From Verrucomicrobia bacterium S94 (lineage in GTDB: Bacteria; Verrucomicrobiota; Kiritimatiellia; Kiritimatiellales; Pontiellaceae), in assembly GCA_004299845.1 (NCBI GenBank), contig CP036201.1, positions 1,364,001 to 1,428,000 of the forward strand: a stretch of 64,000 nt of DNA. The letters run 5' to 3'. Of this stretch, positions 32,129 through 64,000 are shown one piece after another. The notes under the pieces were generated by a model. It worked only from the letters and a program-made list of their open reading frames with translations, was not told where the DNA came from and did not search any database. A program made the position numbers and the translations under genes. Position 1 is the first letter of the stretch, and the number at the start of each line of letters is the position of its first letter.

Positions 32129-34387
32129 TCAAATCAGTTCGCATGCCCCGCCTGCACAGGCAATTTCACCCTGCAGGTTGGTTTCATCAGACTCTTCCTT
32201 CATCTGCGTATAGTCGACCGTGCGGAACTTGGAGATCAGTTCATTCCACAGTGTTTCGTCCTGCGCAGTAACCACCTCTTCATGCGGCGCCTGCTGATAG
32301 ATCTTGTCACCGGTGGCGGCCAGCATGCTGATGCCGGTAAAGTCGGCGCGGTTTTCCCAGATGTAGTCCGCCACATCATCCCATTCGTCATCGCGAACGG
32401 TCAGGGTGTTGGACACATTGTGATACAGGCCGGGGTTCAGCTCCGGACGGGCGGTTCCGGGCACCACCCAGTTCTGCTGTGTGGAGTGTACATATTTAAG
32501 CAGATCCAGCGCGGACATTTCTGAGCGCAGAATCGCTTCTTCCGGGGCTTCAACACAGAAAGTGATGACATCGTCGGTTTTATTGGCACTCCACACCGAC
32601 TCTTCACACATGTGCGGGTTGGTCTCATTGAAATATTTGTAGACCGGATCGGTTTTGTTGGCCTGTACCCGGCGGAAGTATCGGCGTGCATGACGCGGAT
32701 GGATCCCCGAGGCCGTACCCAGCAGCAGTGATGTTGAACCTGCAGGTTTTACACAGGTCAGACGTGCAGCCGGTTCGGTCCCTATTTTCAGCGTGATCTC
32801 GCGGTTCACCTCAATGGCATATTTGGCCATTTTCCGCTGCATTTCCGGATCCAGCGTAATTGCCGGAGAGTCCATCATGCCGGTAATCGACACACCGAGC
32901 AGTGCTTCACGGCGACACAGCTTTTCGGTGGTTTCGCCGAGATAAGGGAAACTGGTATAGGCCGCCTGCAGCGAACCGATAATGGTTGCGGCGCGCACTG
33001 CAATACGGAAATCCTCTTCGGAAAGAAGTTTAGCTCCGTTGATTTCCGTCAGGTTGCAGAACTGCCAGCCCGATTCCACGGTCACATTGCCGTCCTCATC
33101 TTTCACCTCCAGATGCGGATTCAGTCCGATTTCACAGCAGGGGTTGCAGCCATGAGACTGGTCATTGGCAAAATAGAAGCCGGGTTCACCCCACTCTTTC
33201 TGTTTCTGGAAAATACGCAGGAACTGCGCTTTCGAAGTTTCGCCGCGAATCAGTTTTACAGAGTTGTTGGAACGGCCGCGCTGCGGGTTGGTTTCAAACC
33301 AGTTTCCGCGCTTGGCGTTCATCATTTCACCGTCATCCGGAGAAAACAGACAGATGGTGGCGGAGCGGCGCACACCGCCGGCAATTACCGCATCGGCCGC
33401 ATGCATCATAATGTCGTAGGCTTCGATCGGTTTCAGTTTGCGGCCAAGAGCACCGTCGAGCACATTGCGGGCGCGTTCCAGTGCACGACGCAGCGGCACA
33501 TGGCCCGGTGCGCGACCGCCGGAAGTGGTCAGTTTGGCACCGCGCGGACGAATCTGGGAATAGTTGAACTCCACCAGATAACCTTCAATATAGCTGTCCA
33601 TGAGTGCCTGCATGGCATCCGCCCATCCTTCGATGGTGTCCGGAATCGTGAAGTGCACCACGGAACCTTCATCAATCGCAGGAGCCAGCGCCGGAAGTTT
33701 TTCGACATGTTCAAACTCAACACTGAAGCCGACCCCGGTGCCGCAGAGCAGCAGAAAAAGACCTTCTGCAAAAAATTCCACACGATCACAGATACCGAAG
33801 GTGCAGTTGTACATGCGGGCATGATTGGATTCAATGGCCTTTCCGCCGAACTGCATCGAGCGCATGGACGGTAGACAGCGTTTTTCAAGCACCCGGTCAA
33901 AGGCCCAGTTGATATCCTCTTCAGCGGCCGGAAACTGGCGCAAATGCATCTCGCGGACGCGGTTTACCGCTTCCGTAAAGGTTTCTCGGCGGCCGAGCTC
34001 CGGAAGAAAACGGGCATAACGGCTGGCAAGCATGTAGTCCTGGATGGCCGATGCATCAGGCCGCAGGCGCTGATTACGGGCCTGCTTATGCTCTTCACGA
34101 TAAAGGATGTAAGCTTTGGCCACATCGTACAGACCGGCTCCCATCAGCTGCTGCTCCACCAGATCCTGAATGTGTTCGACATCGACTTCCTCGGTCCCGC
34201 GGCTCTTATATCCGGTAATGATATTATCAATTTTTGTGGTGATATCCTTGATGATGGTCACAAGATGTTGTGGTACCTCTTCAACCTCTTTGAGGGTTCC
34301 CCGAACCGCTTTTTCGATCGCGGCGAAGATCTTTTTATGATCGTAATCGACCGTCGCAAAGTCGCGTTTTTTAACTTTTATTGCCAT
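32129..34387 (-). CDS. nrdJ: Adenosylcobalamin-dependent ribonucleotide reductase (class II)
   Basis: 752 residues from the ATG at 34387 with AAAGGG upstream; the frame opens 69 bases earlier. An ATP-cone (about residues 4-95, VKKRDFATVDYDHKKIFAAI) is followed by the catalytic barrel: MRSMQFGGKAIESNHARMYN, FLLLCGTGVGFSVE and the finger-loop region around NLTEINGAK. The C-terminus ends CAGGACELI, whose two Cys would be re-reduced by thioredoxin. RYARFLPELGRRETF resembles monomeric nucleoside-triphosphate reductases of the Lactobacillus type. Needs B12, so the cell can make dNTPs with or without oxygen. Candidate NrdR boxes lie upstream. Confidence 0.93.
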   Translation of the reverse strand: MAIKVKKRDFATVDYDHKKIFAAIEKAVRGTLKEVEEVPQHLVTIIKDITTKIDNIITGYKSRGTEEVDVEHIQDLVEQQLMGAGLYDVAKAYILYREEHKQARNQRLRPDASAIQDYMLASRYARFLPELGRRETFTEAVNRVREMHLRQFPAAEEDINWAFDRVLEKRCLPSMRSMQFGGKAIESNHARMYNCTFGICDRVEFFAEGLFLLLCGTGVGFSVEFEHVEKLPALAPAIDEGSVVHFTIPDTIEGWADAMQALMDSYIEGYLVEFNYSQIRPRGAKLTTSGGRAPGHVPLRRALERARNVLDGALGRKLKPIEAYDIMMHAADAVIAGGVRRSATICLFSPDDGEMMNAKRGNWFETNPQRGRSNNSVKLIRGETSKAQFLRIFQKQKEWGEPGFYFANDQSHGCNPCCEIGLNPHLEVKDEDGNVTVESGWQFCNLTEINGAKLLSEEDFRIAVRAATIIGSLQAAYTSFPYLGETTEKLCRREALLGVSITGMMDSPAITLDPEMQRKMAKYAIEVNREITLKIGTEPAARLTCVKPAGSTSLLLGTASGIHPRHARRYFRRVQANKTDPVYKYFNETNPHMCEESVWSANKTDDVITFCVEAPEEAILRSEMSALDLLKYVHSTQQNWVVPGTARPELNPGLYHNVSNTLTVRDDEWDDVADYIWENRADFTGISMLAATGDKIYQQAPHEEVVTAQDETLWNELISKFRTVDYTQMKEESDETNLQGEIACAGGACELI

Positions 34388-35138: not shown

Positions 35139-36121
35139 AGGTTTCTGTGATCATGCCTGTCTGGAATGCAGCCGATACGGTATTGCAGACTTTGGAAACG
35201 CTTCGTTCCCAGACCTACGAATCGATGGAAATCATCGTCGTGGACGACGGATCGACGGACGGCACCACCGAACTGCTGCGGAAGCAGAAGGATATTCTAC
35301 TGATCGAACGACCGCATCGAGGCATTGTTCCGGCCCTGAATGATGGCCTTCAGGCTGCGGGCGGAACCTTTATTGCCCGGATGGATGCTGACGATTTATG
35401 CCACCCGAAGCGCATCGAAAAACAGGTGGAGTATCTTAAAAAACATCCGGAAATCGGACTGGTGGGCTGCTGTGTTCAGTTTGGAGGAGACCGGGAACAG
35501 CAGGCAGGCTACGCCGCTTACGTGGGCTGGATCAATTTGCTGACGGAACCGGACGACATTGCGCTCAACCGGTTTGTGGAGTCTCCGTTCGCCCACCCTT
35601 CCGTTATGTTCCGGCGCGCACTGCTTCAGGAATGCGGGACCTATCGCGATGGCTGTTTTCCAGAGGATTACGAGCTCTGGCTCCGCTGGATGGCCGATGG
35701 AGTCCGTATGGGAAAGGTCAAAGAGACACTCCTTACATGGAATGATCCTCCGTCACGTCTGTCACGTACGGATAATCGGTATTCCGTTGATGCCTTCTAT
35801 CGTATAAAAGCCGGTTATCTCTGCCGATGGCTGGAAACAAACAACCCGCATTATCCGGAGGTGCTGATCTGGGGTGCCGGCCGGGTAACCCGTAAACGCG
35901 CTGCAATTCTGGAAGAATGCGGCCTTCGCATTACGCATTATATTGACATTAAATCACGACGCCTTAACTGCGGTACTCCGGTCATCCGTCCGGAGGAAAT
36001 TCCGACTCCTGATTCCTGCATGGTTCTTTCCATGGTCGGGAACCGCGGTGCCCGGCATCAGATTCATAATTATCTGGCAGAATGCGGATTCGTAACCGGA
36101 AAAAGTATGATCGCCTGCTAG
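35135..36121 (+). CDS. GT2 family glycosyltransferase with C-terminal nucleotide-fold extension
   Basis: 328 residues. GT-A core at 1-230: VSVIMPVWNAADTVLQTLET, IIVVDDGSTDGTTELL, the metal motif ARMDADDLCHPKRI and FPEDYELWLRWMADG. The last 90 residues, starting EVLIWGAGRVTRKRAAIL, resemble a small Rossmann-like GxGxxT domain found behind some GT2 domains. The sugar and acceptor are unknown. It is translated from an ATG that overlaps the STAS-like gene's stop. Confidence 0.85.
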   Translation: MKVSVIMPVWNAADTVLQTLETLRSQTYESMEIIVVDDGSTDGTTELLRKQKDILLIERPHRGIVPALNDGLQAAGGTFIARMDADDLCHPKRIEKQVEYLKKHPEIGLVGCCVQFGGDREQQAGYAAYVGWINLLTEPDDIALNRFVESPFAHPSVMFRRALLQECGTYRDGCFPEDYELWLRWMADGVRMGKVKETLLTWNDPPSRLSRTDNRYSVDAFYRIKAGYLCRWLETNNPHYPEVLIWGAGRVTRKRAAILEECGLRITHYIDIKSRRLNCGTPVIRPEEIPTPDSCMVLSMVGNRGARHQIHNYLAECGFVTGKSMIAC

Positions 36122-36321
36122 TCACAATAATGTATTCAAAATTAAAATAAATACATATGTGTGCATACAAAGCCAAAATTAACATTACTCATTTGTATAT
36201 TTATAAATTTTATATCTAAGCCTTTTATAAAGCGTTACACCGTTTTTATCCCGCAGCCATACAGTCCGCCGGCCTGCGGTGGCACACCTGATGCGATTAG
36301 TGTTCCCAAGGATGCATAAAC

Positions 36322-37779
36322 ATGAATTTTGAAGCGTATGAAACGGAAGCTTTTTTTGATGAGCTGTTTGACAACCAGGGACATTCGCGAGAATCAGCGA
36401 AGTTGCTTGTAAACGCCATCGAATCACTGGCCGAAGGCGATCTGCTCAAACGTCAGGAAGCCAGCGAACGGGCCATGCACAGCATGGGAATAACGTTCAA
36501 TGTTTATGGTTCCGGTGAAGGTACCGAGCGGACGATTCCGTTCGATATCGTGCCGCGAATCATCGACGGAAAAGAATGGGATGTAGTCGAGGCCGGATTG
36601 AAACAGCGGATCAAGGCCGTTAACCGGTTTATCGACGACATTTATCACGACCGGAATATCATTGCCGACGGCGTGATTCCCGAATGGATTTTCACCTCGT
36701 CCAAAGGCTACCTGCCCCAATGTCAGGGACTGAATCCGCCCAAAGGGGTCTGGGCACACGTTACCGGCACGGATCTGGTGCGTGACAATAAAGGGACATT
36801 CTATGTTCTTGAAGACAATCTCAGGGTGCCCTCAGGTGTATCTTATGTTCTGCTGAACCGGACCCTGATGAAACGAAATTTTCCGGAGGTTTTCCATAAA
36901 AGCCGGGTACGCCGTGTCGTGGATTATCCCGATCAGTTCATGAAAATGCTTCATCATGTTGCGCCGGAGGGGATCGACCGTCCAAACGTTGCGGTGCTGA
37001 CGCCGGGCATATACAACTCGGCCTATTTTGAGCACGCCTTTCTCGCCCAGCAGATGGGAGCCCTGCTGGTGGAAGGTCATGATCTGGTTTATGACGGAAA
37101 ATATGTGTGTGCACGGACAGTCGAAGGCCTGGTTCGCATCGATATCATCTACCGGCGGATCGACGATGAATTTCTGGATCCCGAAGTATTCAGGGAGGAT
37201 TCCTATCTCGGCTGTGCCGGTATGATGAAGGCTTTCCGAGAAGGAACGCTGACGCTGGCCAACGCCCCCGGCACCGGCGTGGCCGATGACAAGGTGGTTT
37301 ATGCCTTTGTTCCGGACATGATTAAATATTATCTGGGAGAGGATCCGCTGCTGCCCAGTGTTCCCACTCATCTTTGCTGCGATGATGAATCGCTGGAATA
37401 CACATTGGATAATCTCGATAAACTGGTCGTCAAACCGGCCAGTGAATCCGGCGGATACGGGATGCTGATCGGCCCGAAAGCTTCGCAGAAAGAACGTGAT
37501 AATTTCGCCCGCGCACTGCGTAAAGATCCGCGCAATTATATTTCACAGCCAACCCTCTCTCTCTCCAGAGCCCCTGTTGTGGTCAATGACCACTTCGAGG
37601 GGCGGCATGTCGATTTACGCCCCTTCATTCTGCACCGGGGTGATGATTCCTATGTCCTTCCCGGAGGTCTGACACGAGTGGCCCTCAAGAAGGGTTCACT
37701 GGTCGTGAACTCCTCACAGGGCGGAGGAACAAAAGACACCTGGGTTGTGGACCAGGGAACCGGACAGGAGGTGGCCTGA
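36322..37779 (+). CDS. Circularly permuted type 2 ATP-grasp protein
   Basis: 485 residues. The family blocks are visible: PFDIVPRIIDGKEWDVVEAG, GLKQRIKAVNRFIDDIYHD, VTGTDLVRDNKGTFYVLEDN, LRVPSGVSYVLLNR and the late KPASESGGYGMLIGP and PGGLTRVALKKGSLVVNSSQ. These permuted ATP-grasps are predicted to ligate carboxylates to amines, making small peptides. AGGA lies nine bases before the ATG. First of five genes with an alpha-E protein, two transglutaminase-like proteins and a fused copy of itself. The ahead-lying 200 bases are AT-rich. Confidence 0.9.
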   Translation: MNFEAYETEAFFDELFDNQGHSRESAKLLVNAIESLAEGDLLKRQEASERAMHSMGITFNVYGSGEGTERTIPFDIVPRIIDGKEWDVVEAGLKQRIKAVNRFIDDIYHDRNIIADGVIPEWIFTSSKGYLPQCQGLNPPKGVWAHVTGTDLVRDNKGTFYVLEDNLRVPSGVSYVLLNRTLMKRNFPEVFHKSRVRRVVDYPDQFMKMLHHVAPEGIDRPNVAVLTPGIYNSAYFEHAFLAQQMGALLVEGHDLVYDGKYVCARTVEGLVRIDIIYRRIDDEFLDPEVFREDSYLGCAGMMKAFREGTLTLANAPGTGVADDKVVYAFVPDMIKYYLGEDPLLPSVPTHLCCDDESLEYTLDNLDKLVVKPASESGGYGMLIGPKASQKERDNFARALRKDPRNYISQPTLSLSRAPVVVNDHFEGRHVDLRPFILHRGDDSYVLPGGLTRVALKKGSLVVNSSQGGGTKDTWVVDQGTGQEVA

Positions 37780-38735
37780 TGCTTCTCAGCCGCGTAGCCG
37801 ATAATATTTACTGGATGAGCCGCTACATTGAACGCGCTTCGAATATAGCCCGTTTCCTTGAAGTAAGCTATCAGCTCAACCTCGATCAGTCGTCCGGGGA
37901 TCAGGAACAGTGGGGCCCGCTCATTGAAATTACCGGTGATATGGCCATTTTTAAAGCACGCTACGGCGCGCCGACCCGCGATAATGTCATGCATTTTCTG
38001 ATGTTTAATCCGGAATATCCAAACTCCATCTCGCGCTGTCTCAGCACAGCACGCTCTATTGCCAAAGGAATGCGGGAAACCGTTTCGGATGACATGTTCC
38101 GGGAGATTAACGCGCTGGGAAAACGGGTACCCGAAACCAGTCGCGAAAAAGCCCAGTTTCACACCCGGGTCTTCCAGCTCTGTCGCGAAATTAAACGCGA
38201 TGCCATGCTGATCGAGGCCATGGCGTCGGAAACCATAGAACGCGGTCAGGGCTACCATTTCTGGCGCGTCGGACGCTATCTGGAACGCGCCGACAAAACC
38301 TCTCGGCTGCTGCACGTCAAATACTTTCATCTCCTGCCCGACCTCGATGCCGTCGGAACACCGATGGATGATCTGCAGTGGAGTGCTGTACTTGATTCAA
38401 TGGATGCCAGAGAAACCTATATTCGAACCCGCGGACTGATTGTTCCCGATAAGGTTGTCGATCTGATGGTACTTGATCAGGGACATCCCCGGGCAATTCT
38501 GTTCTGCCTGAACGCCGTGGTGGAGAGTTTATACCGCATCACGCGTGACAAACCGGGAGAGCCCCATAGGATCGTCGAACAACTGTGTGAAAAACTGCTG
38601 GCGATGTCGGCCAAAGAGATCATTAAGTTTGGCATGAATGAGTTTATCGATGATCTTCAGTTGAGTTTTAATGAAGTGAATAATGCCATTCACACGCATT
38701 TTATTTCCCCTAAAGCCGTGACGGGCGGAGTTTAA
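37779..38735 (+). CDS. Alpha-E domain protein (DUF403)
   Basis: 318 residues, almost entirely helical. The start MLLSRVADNIYWMSRYIERA is diagnostic of the family, with a duplicated W-x-VGRYLERADKTSRLLHVK block in the middle. The family always travels with permuted ATP-grasp proteins and may be a partner in peptide ligation. No enzymatic motif is known. The ATG overlaps the ATP-grasp stop (TGATG), so the two are made together. The same pair is fused in the gene at 42095. Confidence 0.9.
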   Translation: MLLSRVADNIYWMSRYIERASNIARFLEVSYQLNLDQSSGDQEQWGPLIEITGDMAIFKARYGAPTRDNVMHFLMFNPEYPNSISRCLSTARSIAKGMRETVSDDMFREINALGKRVPETSREKAQFHTRVFQLCREIKRDAMLIEAMASETIERGQGYHFWRVGRYLERADKTSRLLHVKYFHLLPDLDAVGTPMDDLQWSAVLDSMDARETYIRTRGLIVPDKVVDLMVLDQGHPRAILFCLNAVVESLYRITRDKPGEPHRIVEQLCEKLLAMSAKEIIKFGMNEFIDDLQLSFNEVNNAIHTHFISPKAVTGGV

Positions 38736-58993: not shown

Positions 58994-60112
58994 TCAGGCA
59001 ATTTCCCGGAACTGAATCTTCAAATCCCGCGCAAGTTTGATGATGCGCTTTTCATCACTCGGAGTTATCAGCACCAGCGAAATGCCCGATTTGCCCGCCC
59101 GGCCGGTGCGGCCGCTGCGGTGCGTGTAATATTCATTTTTTTCCGGCAGCTGATGATGGATCACAAAAGAGAGATTATCCACATCGATGCCGCGCGCCGA
59201 TACATCGGTCGAAACCAGCAGGCGCACGCGCCCCTTTTTGAACATCCGCATAATCTTGTCGCGCTCGCTCTGCATCAGATCACCGTGCAGCACGGCATGA
59301 GTGATGCCCGCCTTTTCGAGCGATTGACCGAAATCAATCGTATCCTGCCGCGTACGGCAGAAAATCACCCCCTGCTGCTGGCCGCGCTCCTTCAGAAAGT
59401 CGAGGATCTGCTCCAGCTTTTCCCCCTCTTTGCAACGAATCAGCAGATGCCGGATATCCGGATTCACAATGTGCTGTTTATCGACTTTCAGAAACGGCGA
59501 CTCATCACCGAGATGTTTGCTGATCATTTTTTTTATGCCCGCCGGCATCGTCGCTGAAAACAGCCAGACATTCCGCTGCCCCGCGGTCAGTTTCAGCACG
59601 GCATCAATATCCTCGCGAAAGCCGAGCTTCAGCATTTCATCGGCTTCGTCCAGCACCACGGTCCGAACTCCGGAGAGATCGACCGCCTTGCGCCGCACCA
59701 AGTCCATTAGGCGCCCCGGCGTCGCCACCAGCACCTGCGTCGGACGCTTCAGCGCCTCAATCTGCACATCAATTTTATCCCCGCCACACACGACATAGGA
59801 AAACATGCGCTCGGTATATTTCGTAAAACGGAACAGCTGCTTCTGCACCTGCTTCGCCAGCTCCCGCGTCGGTGCCAGCACCAGACCCTGAATCTGCGGA
59901 TTTTTCGGATCCATCGACGCCAGCAACGGCAGCCCGAACGCCGCGGTCTTCCCGGTACCCGTCTGCGCCTGGGCAATGAAATCGGTCTGTTTCCCGAGAA
60001 TCATCGGAATCGTTTTCGCCTGAATGCCTGTAGGATGCTTAATCCCCAGCTCATTCAGTCCTTTAATATAATCGTCGGTTATTCCGAGCGCTTCAAATGA
60101 TTTCATAGCCAT
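58994..60112 (-). CDS. DEAD-box ATP-dependent RNA helicase
   Basis: 372 residues from the ATG at 60112; the frame opens at 60169. Motifs in order: Q motif FEALGITDDYIKGLNELGIK, AQTGTGKTAAF (I), PTRELAKQV (Ia), VLDEADEML (II), FSATMP (III), VSTDVSARGIDVDN (V) and HRSGRTGRAG (VI). No C-terminal RNA-binding extension, so it resembles short RhlE-type helicases involved in ribosome assembly or RNA decay. AGGATAGG precedes the start. Confidence 0.93.
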   Translation of the reverse strand: MAMKSFEALGITDDYIKGLNELGIKHPTGIQAKTIPMILGKQTDFIAQAQTGTGKTAAFGLPLLASMDPKNPQIQGLVLAPTRELAKQVQKQLFRFTKYTERMFSYVVCGGDKIDVQIEALKRPTQVLVATPGRLMDLVRRKAVDLSGVRTVVLDEADEMLKLGFREDIDAVLKLTAGQRNVWLFSATMPAGIKKMISKHLGDESPFLKVDKQHIVNPDIRHLLIRCKEGEKLEQILDFLKERGQQQGVIFCRTRQDTIDFGQSLEKAGITHAVLHGDLMQSERDKIMRMFKKGRVRLLVSTDVSARGIDVDNLSFVIHHQLPEKNEYYTHRSGRTGRAGKSGISLVLITPSDEKRIIKLARDLKIQFREIA

Positions 60113-60719
60113 TGGTCCTATCCTGAAAATTTGTGCAAGCGGGGGAACCTGAACGTTTAACCCTGCCAATACGAGCTAAATGCTCGAAAAAGGCTATCCA
60201 AACTCTTCAAAAAGATACATACCCCGTTTCCGAAGAATCCCAAGACTTATACCACTTGCTGAAACATACGGGTATATTTTTACCACCCGCTCCGCTGGAG
60301 GACCTCGGAGAACTCAGAATCCTTCCTCCGTGTTCCTCTGGGTCCCTCGTGGTGAAACTTCGGAGATTCCGGACGACGAGGTTTATACCGAGAAGGTATC
60401 AAGCAGGGTATTATGTACCGCAGGCGGCCCGCCTGCTCCCGACAATCAACGGCCCTGAAAAAATCATTGAAAACCGATCTCACGCAAAGGCACAGAGAAC
60501 GCGGAGCACTGGCCTGAATGATTCACGCGACAGATGCGGTACAGATACGAAACGTCGAAAAGTATAGTGTAGCTGCCTACCCCGAGCCCCCGCCTTAAAT
60601 CCGAGGACCGACCCTTTTTCCGGAGAAGTAATCAATATACTCACCCATACCAAAAAAGACTCGAGAGGGGTCTCGTGAACCCCGCTCAAAATCAAGAGTG
60701 ATTTCAAATTCATACGAAC
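60113..60719. other. About 600-base gene-free, repeat-bearing stretch
   Basis: No convincing coding frame. It carries two segments that look like dispersed intergenic repeats: CTCCGTGTTCCTCTGGGTCC / CTCGTGGTGAAACT (about 60327-60360) and CACGCAAAGGCACAGAGAAC GCGGAG (about 60480-60505). The DEAD-box gene's promoter must lie at the left end. The right end borders the accessory ABC-ATPase cassette. Confidence 0.55.
60327..60505. repeat. Fragments of dispersed intergenic repeats
   Basis: Both fragments belong to a recognisable style of extragenic repeat (read on the minus strand, TCTGTGCCTTTGCGTGAGAT; on the plus strand, CTCCGTG-TTCCTCTGGGTCC-CTCGTGGTGAAA) that is common between genes in PVC and some delta-proteobacterial genomes. 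In this window each occurs once, so the repeat nature rests on recall and not on copies seen here. Confidence 0.4.
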
Positions 60720-62825
60720 TCATCCATTCGCCCCCTCAACAATTTTATTACATTCGGTAACAACATACTCCGGAATGGTGTCGAATTTGGCAGGATCAAG
60801 CTGACAGACAAATTCATTTTCGATGTGATATGTCTGCTTAATGAATTTTTCGATAACAGCATCATTTTCGTCATGATCAATAAGCCGACACACCTGGAGC
60901 TTCTCATACCCATTCGTACATGAAGCGTACAAGAGCTTCATTTGATTGACATTAGTAATACGGTTCAAAAGTGAAGGATATGAAAAACCTGCTAGATAAT
61001 TTAATACTTCAGCACATCCGTTATCAAACTTGGCCTGTTCCATTTCTGGGTGATGGCCGTCTGCATCTCTCGGCTCACGGGTGTCAACTCCACGATCTTT
61101 GTTGTTCCTTTTGTGCAATAAGTTCGATAATATTTGATATGCATCACCTTTTTCATCTGTAATCTCGAAGTGCCGCCTCAAGTAGATCAACTTAATAATA
61201 TCATCTTTCTCTGAATTAAGTGCATTCTTACAAATTTCAGCAAATGTTTGAACATCGTGTTTCTCGATAGATAGTTCCTCAATGATGCCAGCTTTCAGCT
61301 TGAGAAATGATGCTGTTGTTTGGTTGCGGAACCTGTGGGATAAGGCTTTGACTGTATCGATGATGGGCTCTACATCGTGTGTAAGCATTAATACGGTTTT
61401 ATTCTTTAAGCATGAGTTCGCATCACGCCGGAAAAGCATCTCGAGAATAGCGTATTTCTTGTTTTTATCAAACGACGATATTGGATCATCCAGAATGATC
61501 AAATCCGGTTTTTTTGATAAACATTCGTACATAAACAATACGATCGAAAATGCATTTCTCTCTCCGAAACTAAGGTGCTGATTTCCACCACTGAGATGAG
61601 TGTCATGATCCAAATGCCGAAGCTTAAGCTGCGCCTGCTCTCCCTCGCCGGAAATATTAACCGCATACCGATATCCTGCATAGGCAAGGAAGGTATTGAT
61701 GTCTTTTTCATGCTTTTCAACAACTCTTTGCATCTCTCGGCGCTGTTGAGCAACTTTCCCTTGAAGCAAACCGGCCTTTTCTATCATGGCATCGATAGAT
61801 GTATTAATAGGTGTTATGGCCTCTTGGGTCTTTTGGGAGTTGAGCTTTTCAATAAAAGATAGGTCAATTTTATATGAAGGGAGCACTTCGGCGACTTTGT
61901 CACCATCCTTGAACTGAAAACCGGAAAGAGTCCGGAGTTTCTCAAGCTTACCGACAAATGAGTCGATTTGGTTTTTAACATCAATCAGGAAATCAACATG
62001 TTCTTTCTCAATTCCATCTTTCAATGTTGTGATTATCGACAAACTGGACCGTGCAGTATCCGAAAAATAATCGCCGAGGCGGTCTATTACACCGATAATG
62101 GCAACCAAATTTTTAATAGTGTTCTTGTCGTATTCCTGACCGACCCTCTTTATCTGTTCCTTCTTATCGGCAGCATGTGAACTACAGAAAGGACAATTGT
62201 CGGACAGTTCTGCAAAATCATAACCTTTTGTTTGCCAGTCAACCCACCCAACGCTCTGCTGACTTTGGATAAAGGGTTTATACGATTCGAGACCAGCCGG
62301 GATATGTTCAATTTTATTTCCTCCAGCCAAACCTTTCATACCAGAGGATGCCTTGGAAATTCCCGTTTTGGTTAGCTTGAAAGCATTTCCCATCTCTTTG
62401 AGGGTGGCAATTAATGCCTCCAACTCATCATTATTTACGAACAGTTGCTTGATTTCGGCAACAAGTTCTTCGATTTCCTGCTCCTTCTTCCTGTAAGCAT
62501 CCGTCTTAATGAAAATCTCAAAGCTATTGCTGAGCAATTCATCCGGCTTGAAAACGAACTGGCTCACATATTCTTCGTTGAAGCACATGACTTGCTGAAG
62601 CGTATCCAGTCCATTTACTTCCGGCCGTTTATCTTCGGGATTTCCTGCCTTCAACTTAAACGGCAAAAGCTTACCCAGATCCGAACCAGAAGCTCCAAGA
62701 ACAATACCCTGCGCTATCGTGCTCTTTCCGGTTCCGTTGGGAGCAAACTTAATATTTAGTTTATTCTCAGCCAGTGTAATGTTCGCTAAATCAATATTAT
62801 TGCAGTTCTTAATTTCGATGTTCAT
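60720..62825 (-). CDS. ABC-type ATPase with zinc-hook-like CxxC and possible HEPN RNase domain (PrrC/RloC-like)
   Basis: 701 residues. Walker A FAPNGTGKST near 28; coiled-coil arms between about 100 and 400, with a CPFC pair near 210 as in the zinc hook of RloC; ABC signature LSFGERNAFS near 416; Walker B PDLIILDDPISSFD near 443 and the HDVEP His loop. The C-terminal 230 residues hold R-x3-E (RRHFE), LLHKRN and RDADGHH, an R-x4-H motif of HEPN nucleases, the fold of PrrC and RloC anticodon nucleases. Visibly AT-richer than flanking genes. Its ATG overlaps the four-helix-bundle gene's stop. Likely antiviral; unproven. Confidence 0.75.
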   Translation of the reverse strand: MNIEIKNCNNIDLANITLAENKLNIKFAPNGTGKSTIAQGIVLGASGSDLGKLLPFKLKAGNPEDKRPEVNGLDTLQQVMCFNEEYVSQFVFKPDELLSNSFEIFIKTDAYRKKEQEIEELVAEIKQLFVNNDELEALIATLKEMGNAFKLTKTGISKASSGMKGLAGGNKIEHIPAGLESYKPFIQSQQSVGWVDWQTKGYDFAELSDNCPFCSSHAADKKEQIKRVGQEYDKNTIKNLVAIIGVIDRLGDYFSDTARSSLSIITTLKDGIEKEHVDFLIDVKNQIDSFVGKLEKLRTLSGFQFKDGDKVAEVLPSYKIDLSFIEKLNSQKTQEAITPINTSIDAMIEKAGLLQGKVAQQRREMQRVVEKHEKDINTFLAYAGYRYAVNISGEGEQAQLKLRHLDHDTHLSGGNQHLSFGERNAFSIVLFMYECLSKKPDLIILDDPISSFDKNKKYAILEMLFRRDANSCLKNKTVLMLTHDVEPIIDTVKALSHRFRNQTTASFLKLKAGIIEELSIEKHDVQTFAEICKNALNSEKDDIIKLIYLRRHFEITDEKGDAYQILSNLLHKRNNKDRGVDTREPRDADGHHPEMEQAKFDNGCAEVLNYLAGFSYPSLLNRITNVNQMKLLYASCTNGYEKLQVCRLIDHDENDAVIEKFIKQTYHIENEFVCQLDPAKFDTIPEYVVTECNKIVEGANG

Positions 62826-63070
62826 AACTCATCCTTCGCAACCAGCTTACCCCACCATTTTTCAGCATCCGCAATGCTGTATTTGGTGAGAAAGTCTGCC
62901 TCGCTTTGCGCACCTTCACCTTCAGCAACATTGGCTCCAACCGATGTTCCAGCGCGTAACAACTGGTTGCTGAGTGTTCGATTGATGCCCGGCTTCTCAT
63001 CCAGAACCTGACAGACTCGAATGATTCGTAATGCAAAATCTTTGGTTCTATCCGGCAGGTCCCTTTTCAT
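62822..63070 (-). CDS. Four-helix-bundle protein (23S rRNA intervening-sequence type), short form
   Basis: 82 residues from the ATG at 63070 (an earlier one at 63085 lies inside the repeat). DRTKDFALRIIRVCQVL, LSNQLLRAGTSVGANVAEGE and SEADFLTKYSIADAEKWW follow the S23/IVP family, but the normal last helix (EARETxYWL) is replaced and cut short by about 35 residues. Family members occur inside 23S intervening sequences and near mobile genes; function unknown. AAGGTG from the repeat serves as ribosome binding site. ATGA overlap couples it to the ATPase. Confidence 0.8.
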   Translation of the reverse strand: MKRDLPDRTKDFALRIIRVCQVLDEKPGINRTLSNQLLRAGTSVGANVAEGEGAQSEADFLTKYSIADAEKWWGKLVAKDEL

Positions 63071-63073
63071 TCT

Positions 63074-63148
63074 TTCACCTTTCAACGTTCACCCTTCACC
63101 CTTTGTATTTTTCACCCCTCACCCTTTACACTTCACCCTTTAACACCC
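63074..63148 (-). repeat. Low-complexity GGGTGAA repeats ahead of the four-helix-bundle gene
   Basis: On the minus strand, degenerate units such as AAAGGGTGAAG, GAGGGGTGAA, AAGGGTGAAGGGTGAACG and AAAGGTGAAAG follow one another. They contain several ribosome-binding-site-like AGGGTG cores. Similar runs often precede four-helix-bundle protein genes. They separate the cassette from recQ. Confidence 0.75.
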
Positions 63149-63151
63149 TGC

Positions 63152-64000
63152 CTAGGATTGCTGCATAAACGCCCGCACCACCCGCAGGTCGGCATAGGTG
63201 ACTTTGTTGCCGGACGCTTCGATGATCGACCGCAGTGAAGCACCGCCCATTCGCCCGAAAAGCTCTTCGCAGAGCTGACGGGTTTCGGCCGGAAGCAGCT
63301 TTTCGATTTCCAGCGTCTCCCCATCGGCCAGCAACGTTTCGATGTGCTGGGCCACCGTTGATTCCGTCAGATCGCGCACGGCGGCAATGCCCTCCAGCGA
63401 ATGCCCCGCCTTCGCCATCTTCAGCGTTTCACGCACCGTCTGGCCGGGGCGTTTTTTCTTCTTTTTGATTTTAATCGGCACCTGCAAAACCGCGCGCTGT
63501 TCCGCCTCCTCCGGGAAACGGATTTTAAACATCTCGATAATGGTCATGAAGGTGTCGCCGTATTTATCCAGTTTGGCCGCACCGACGCCGGAAATACCCG
63601 CCATCTGCTCCGGCGTATCGGGAAAATAAAGCGCCATTTCGCGCAGCGTACGATCCGAGAAAATCACAAACGGCGGAACGCCTTCCTCCTGCGCCAGCCG
63701 CTGACGCTCCGCCCGCAGCTGATCAAACAGCTTTCTGGAATAGTCGCCTGCCACTTGCGTTTTGTCCGAGGCCTGGAACGCTTTCTGACGAATCACCTCA
63801 AATTTCTTTTTGCCGAACAGCACTTGTTTGCCTTTGGGCGTCAGCGCCAGCGCGGAAAACCGCTCCGCATCCTGCACCAGGCATTCCTGTGCGAGCAGAT
63901 CGTCGATCATCCGCCGCCAGTATTTCTTGGTTTCGTCTTTGCCCACGCCGTAGGTTTTCAACTGATCGTGCCCCAGCTCGCGAATCCGCGCAGTGTTTGC
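63152..64000 (-). CDS. recQ: RecQ-type ATP-dependent DNA helicase, C-terminal part (5' end outside window)
   Basis: The frame is open to base 64000 with no start, so the helicase core lies beyond the edge. Seen: end of the RQC winged-helix domain (ARIRELGHDQLKTYGVGKDE), an HRDC domain at about 95-165 from the first visible residues (VPPFVIFSDRTLREMA, GISGVGAAKLDKYGD), and a C-terminal helix-turn-helix-type extension (VRETLKMAKAGHSLEGIAAV) as in many long RecQ proteins. It unwinds DNA at forks and during recombination. Followed by the repeat and accessory cassette. Confidence 0.92.
   Translation of the reverse strand, partial: ANTARIRELGHDQLKTYGVGKDETKKYWRRMIDDLLAQECLVQDAERFSALALTPKGKQVLFGKKKFEVIRQKAFQASDKTQVAGDYSRKLFDQLRAERQRLAQEEGVPPFVIFSDRTLREMALYFPDTPEQMAGISGVGAAKLDKYGDTFMTIIEMFKIRFPEEAEQRAVLQVPIKIKKKKKRPGQTVRETLKMAKAGHSLEGIAAVRDLTESTVAQHIETLLADGETLEIEKLLPAETRQLCEELFGRMGGASLRSIIEASGNKVTYADLRVVRAFMQQS

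Follow-up and report, generated by a model that had tools for sequence, protein, structure and literature searches.

RloC, an anticodon nuclease with a zinc hook, is defined by the motif R-x3-E-x36-52-H (PMC2610378). The prr type I restriction-modification (R-M) locus encodes PrrC between its hsdS and hsdR genes; the protein carries an R-E-x31-H triad (of the R320-E324-H356 type). In the Coxiella 23S rRNA intervening sequence (IVS), tandem heptamers precede an S23p/four-helix-bundle (4HB) ORF (PMC4990558). S23/IVP proteins have remained puzzling ever since the discovery of rRNA intervening sequences, and in a library of open-access papers the Coxiella IVS is the only description that we found of 4HB genes with heptamers or inverted repeats.

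Here we describe a locus in which an ABC ATPase with likenesses to RloC and PrrC directly follows a 4HB gene and its heptamer array. It lies in a 64-kb stretch of DNA, called the window below. The original prediction read the two genes as a defence pair. We find that a candidate-defence ATPase has come by chance to adjoin a broken 4HB gene, itself one of a class of genes that are bracketed by repeats and have been little described; the cassette is probably a relic and not a two-gene system, with an ATPase that would work alone. It is the 4HB elements, and not the gene pairing, that are surprising and give the locus its interest.

The cassette occupies a variable site between recQ and a DEAD-box helicase gene

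The features of the region are collected in Table 1. Sequence and ORFs confirmed that the cassette consists of two minus-strand genes, with the ATPase start and the 4HB stop overlapping as ATGA, and that this two-gene unit is AT-richer than its surroundings (GC 0.39-0.45 versus 0.50-0.58), both as originally predicted. The 4HB gene was given an ATG start, and an alternative TTG start at 63085 is possible. On the far side of the ATPase gene the stretch from 60170 to 60719 is gene-poor and contains a palindromic repeat. An Rfam scan of the region gave no matches.

Table 1. Features of the cassette and its borders, in window coordinates
Feature	Position	Strand	Description
ATPase gene	60720..62825	-	701 aa, Rad50/SMC-type ABC ATPase; coiled coil, CPFC, helical C-terminal domain; PADLOC PDC-S06 (PDLC04889)
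Truncated 4HB gene	62822..63070	-	TIGR02436/PF05635, 82 aa; family match over residues 7-70 only
Degenerate 7-nt tandem array, GGGTGAA-type	63071..63141 (about)	-	Upstream of the 4HB gene; TRF period 7 and 37
recQ, 3' part	63152..64000	-	RQC, HRDC and HTH_40 domains (Pfam); left border of the insert
Insert not present in relatives	60621..63150	.	Genome comparison
Probable intrinsic terminator	60652..60688	-	Hairpin then T run, downstream of the ATPase gene; by eye
Palindromic repeat remnant	60282..60356 (about)	.	ACCACCCGCTCCGC...GGTGGT-like arms; of the kind flanking GxxExxY genes in the genus; also in G035
DEAD-box helicase gene	58994..60169	-	Right border gene

Comparison with a sister species (G035), whose RecQ is 93% identical, delimited the insert: in the DNA alignment, identity ends at the recQ stop codon and restarts at window position 60620. 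Between those two points the sister species carries gajA and gajB, a complete Gabija system (L075:1309-4087), which shares with the cassette this recQ/DEAD-box site only, its genes being unrelated. In five further genomes (G228, G160, G389, G248 and G127) recQ lies close to the DEAD-box gene, and in several congeners the two are adjacent. In the window the gap holds a 2.5-kb insert with an intact PDC-S06 ATPase gene. The recQ/DEAD-box gap is thus a variable site at which defence genes arrive and leave.

The ATPase belongs to a widely shared family of defence candidates

The ATPase matches a PADLOC PDC-S06 model (PDLC04889) over essentially its full length, with residues 1-697 aligned to positions 1-688 of the 693 in the profile (E 6e-295); other PDC-S06 models match mainly around the ATPase head, and the PDC-S06 label itself denotes a candidate. 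Its Pfam match is AAA_13. The protein is an additional member of this listed family, which is known as a candidate defence kind. Eleven relatives at 67-82% identity were found in Balneolaceae, Bacteroidales, Kiritimatiellae, Nitrospira/Nitrospirae, Nitrosomonas, Pseudomonadales, Marinobacter, Undibacterium and Acidithiobacillus. Within the home phylum the gene is rare, occurring in 6 of 388 sampled genomes; the sample included nine congeners, none of which has it. Full-length relatives at a greater distance (53-58%) are carried by 815 plasmids, mostly from Escherichia and Salmonella. Phage records and IMG/VR yielded no relatives.

One such plasmid is R64 (L095), where the relative (WP_000350638) is flanked by ibfA and pifA, which PMC8004404 names as phage-inhibition genes. 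The relative is not ibfA itself, which we ruled out by position (ibfA at 32,653-34,209, the relative at 35,673-37,811); nor is it pifA.

Other relatives are neighboured by hsdS, by type III-like R-M genes and brxL-like genes (labels that were assigned partly by eye), or by a type II methylase and its endonuclease. Two loci, L013 from Kiritimatiellae and L014 from Nitrospira, have the relative within a type I R-M operon that is complete. The gene order there is hsdM, Bro-N, hsdS, DUF2188, ATPase, AlbA_2/HATPase_c_4-type gene, hsdR, which places the ATPase gene between hsdS and hsdR; hsdM and Bro-N of L013 were assigned from position and length. L014 has in addition a 4HB gene, of the subfamily found in the window, between Bro-N and hsdS (hsdM, Bro-N, 4HB, hsdS, DUF2188, ATPase, AlbA_2-type gene, hsdR). 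No R-M genes stand next to the ATPase in the window; elsewhere in the genome there are three HSDR_N loci, one of them about 49% identical to the partner HsdR. The ATPase is an intact, widely shared anti-phage candidate that, from these sequence comparisons, behaves like a defence module. The original prediction of a Rad50/RloC/PrrC-like defence candidate is borne out by the PDC-S06 match, by neighbourhoods of R-M, BREX-type and plasmid defence genes, and by the Gabija system at the same site in the sister species. For the defence field this names a plasmid-borne, widely transferred candidate ATPase family that is easily testable, and removes a false partner from it.

At L014 we also noted a gene-less palindromic heptamer array (L014:4630-4720), which separates the hsdS end from DUF2188. 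After this array comes the tail belonging to a different hsdS allele, and hsdS ends might be exchanged through the array.

The ATPase is RloC-like in architecture

Walker A (PNGTGKST), the ABC signature (LSFGE), Walker B (LIILDDP) and the CPFC motif (residues 211-214), all anticipated by the original prediction, are present and conserved. Both cysteines of CP[FY]C are invariant in 15 of 15 sequences, and the motif is placed where RloC has its zinc hook. In the AlphaFold2 model of the ATPase (pLDDT 80), residues 1-520 resemble the heads of Rad50 and SMC proteins, with Z up to 15.8, and PtuA of Septu and retrons, with Z about 14.

Within the C-terminal domain (residues 520-701), R550, R551, Y640, E641, K642, R647, H667, E669 and N670 are invariant, and E554 and H571 are nearly so, one relative having K at H571 and D at E554. 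An R-x3-E motif is conserved, with the conserved H571 at x16 from the Glu, and the His residues at x50-51 (H605/H606) are not conserved. Modelled alone (pLDDT 84), this domain gave no match to a solved fold above noise in Foldseek (best E 0.98) or VIA (best Z 2.9), and no known nuclease was matched. The original prediction had taken RDADGHH as the motif of a HEPN-type RNase. That motif is confined to the window sequence among those compared, and the C-terminal domain has no conserved R-x4-6-H motif; the assignment by motif was dropped. A Las1 chain that could have suggested HEPN stood only at Foldseek rank 10 (E 4.2) and was not counted.

The protein thus shares with RloC an ABC head, a CxxC in the coiled coil, a helical C-terminal domain and R-x3-E, but lacks a conserved His 36-52 residues after the Glu, and no sequence-profile link to RloC was found. 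Its relatives at L013 and L014 share with PrrC the position between hsdS and hsdR; the family differs from PrrC in having a CPxC, in lacking the R-E-x31-H triad, and in being often found away from type I R-M operons. The ATPase is RloC-like in architecture, and we do not file it as RloC, PrrC or HEPN.

We give somewhat less than an even chance to the ATPase being a genuine RNase of RloC/PrrC type, an anticodon nuclease with a contracted triad R550-E554-H571 that would be silenced by R-M enzymes where these are linked. The invariant CPxC, the conserved R-x3-E with its near-invariant H571 and the PrrC-like position of L013 and L014 would all fit such an enzyme. The His spacing of x16 instead of x31-52, the unmatched C-terminal fold, the relative with substitutions at both H571 and E554, and the many relatives unlinked to a type I R-M operon argue against it.

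The 4HB gene is truncated and is probably not a partner of the ATPase

The shortened last helix of the 4HB protein, part of the original prediction, is real, and the loss is larger than a shortening: the C-terminal ~48 residues are gone, and with them the whole of helix 4 and the latter half of helix 3. The protein is truncated rather than specialised. The window 4HB gene is collinear with the 4HB gene in the Nitrospira R-M operon (L014), array included, up to residue 67 (KYSIA). Beyond this point follow 15 unrelated residues (DAEKWWGKLVAKDEL), and a search for the source of this tail gave no match.

We then asked whether the pair recurs. With a 4HB profile run over 21 other ATPase loci, an adjacent 4HB gene was found at 0 of 21; the sole 4HB-bearing locus among them is L014, where the 4HB gene lies ~1.8 kb upstream of the ATPase gene with hsdS and DUF2188 between. 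Eight of the 15 ATPase-bearing genomes other than that of the window have no 4HB gene at all. This lack of recurrence, which the original prediction had itself named as grounds for refutation, speaks against a defence pair. A dedicated two-gene system, with the 4HB protein as the controller of a HEPN anticodon nuclease, is suggested by the adjacency with its ATGA overlap and by an ATPase of defence type; given in addition the incomplete 4HB fold, the unconserved RDADGHH and the missing HEPN match, we consider it very improbable.

The kinship of the 4HB gene points elsewhere. Among its 17 closest 4HB genes (L205-L221), taken from a search of 388 genomes of the phylum plus the Nitrospira locus used as query, nine have homologues of the type I R-M operon genes no more than 1.5 kb away. 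Since type I R-M operons are where the closest sampled 4HB relatives cluster, the best reading of the pair, from sequence, is that of a deletion remnant in a variable site. Given the collinearity with L014 and the nine of 17 near type I genes, the simplest reading is a deletion within such an operon that spared the array, half a 4HB gene and the ATPase gene. A deletion running from inside the 4HB gene to just before the ATPase start would have joined the two genes, either before or after transfer. No intermediate of such a deletion was seen, which counts against this reading, as does the untraced 15-residue tail.

Two further explanations accept the truncation and draw other conclusions from it. 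The truncated ORF could have been retained as a leader cistron, through which translation would be coupled into the ATPase gene and the ATPase level set, for which the ATGA overlap and the intact start codon and array might be cited; this is a single case, upstream contexts differ at the other ATPase loci, and we regard the proposal as unlikely. The whole insert could instead be decaying and inactive, its R-M operon partner genes gone and its 4HB gene truncated. The ATPase ORF is full length with every invariant residue retained, which makes general decay quite unlikely in our estimation.

Under the deletion-remnant reading that we prefer, the ATPase would need no partner and act as a sensor-effector of the Rad50/RloC-like kind. 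What its head and CPxC coiled coil would sense is phage DNA, or else a restriction enzyme's state, and sensing would release the C-terminal effector, most likely a growth-stopping nuclease. The 4HB remnant and its array would play no part in defence. They would stem from small inserts of another class, which carry a 4HB gene flanked on both sides by inverted 7-nt arrays specific to each locus. Through the retained ATGA overlap the two genes may still be translationally coupled to some degree.

4HB genes are bracketed by inverted heptamer arrays

The GGGTGAA repeats upstream of the 4HB gene, which the original prediction had pointed out, form a genuine array with a period of 7 and 9.3 copies. 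Its lag-7 self-match is the highest anywhere in the 64-kb window, and the array is therefore not a chance occurrence. It represents a left arm only (IR score 9 for the window locus); no right arm was found in the window, though most loci of the family have one. We examined all ten 4HB genes of the home genome, and most have short tandem repeats on both sides that are mutually inverted and differ from locus to locus.

This arrangement extends well beyond the home genome. Over 38 loci in the genus, the inverted flank match was 16.7 versus 10.8 for mismatched pairs (sd 2.4), and over 28 loci from ATPase-bearing genomes of other groups (Bacteroidota, Nitrospira and other families of the home phylum) it was 20.4 versus 10.8 (0/20,000 permutations). 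A further comparison of 4HB loci gave 18.5 versus 10.9 (0/10,000 permutations). Among the loci of these sets some are orthologous, and independent insertions are fewer than loci. The lag spectrum of 59 loci peaked at 7 (0.618) and 14 (0.541) only, while 40 control genes had 0.400 at lag 7 and no inverted match. The array result held when the set was enlarged to 72 loci. Units vary, for example (GAATGAT)n at L217, (CACTTCT)n at L207 and (CATTCAG)n at L214.

Sister sites occur in filled and empty states. The lysA-dapA site (L127-L151) is filled in G035, G127, G392 and G400, empty in G000, G228, G160, G050 and others, scarred in G248 and decayed in G398. The gmd-fcl junction (L153-L169) is empty in some species, holds a GxxExxY gene in others, and elsewhere is occupied by one of at least four distinct 4HB types. 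Here the right array becomes the new N-terminus of Fcl, and at L163 an in-frame insert of ~80 aa within Fcl includes the peptide STPDSKLQT, which resembles the translation of a heptamer array.

Like the Coxiella IVS, these 4HB elements have a 4HB ORF preceded by tandem heptamers and are closed by inverted sequence; they differ in lying between protein genes and in having each a heptamer of its own. The window copy has the S23/TIGR02436 ORF and upstream heptamer array of the rRNA-IVS kind and lacks the inverted far end. By analogy, the Coxiella rRNA element looks like one case of the 4HB-element design. We tentatively propose, as an idea that could well prove wrong, that the 4HB (S23/IVP) genes of several phyla are the cargo of small insertion elements that lie between operon genes and carry inverted, strictly 7-nt arrays with a unit varying per locus, rRNA intervening sequences being one special case. 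If this is true, the origin of a new unit at each site and movement without a recognisable transposase would amount to a new mechanism. Locus-specific inverted arrays between protein genes, together with filled, empty and scarred sister sites, make the role of S23/IVP proteins directly testable.

The heptamer unit at lysA-dapA resembles the native lysA end and might derive from the target. Copying of the unit from the target is suggestive at this site, but gmd-fcl has different units behind the same target end, and we do not claim it. Two functions for the arrays were also set aside: as RNA stems, their wobble asymmetry (G.U versus A.C, 76 to 59) was too weak, and as all-frame stop-codon devices they had no excess over shuffles.

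GxxExxY (TIGR04256) genes in the genus (L175-L204) likewise have inverted flanks, of the ACCACGGAGGGCACGGAG kind (18.7 versus 11.3), and these flanks showed no period of 7. The gene-less palindrome adjoining the cassette (Table 1) is of this GxxExxY flank kind.
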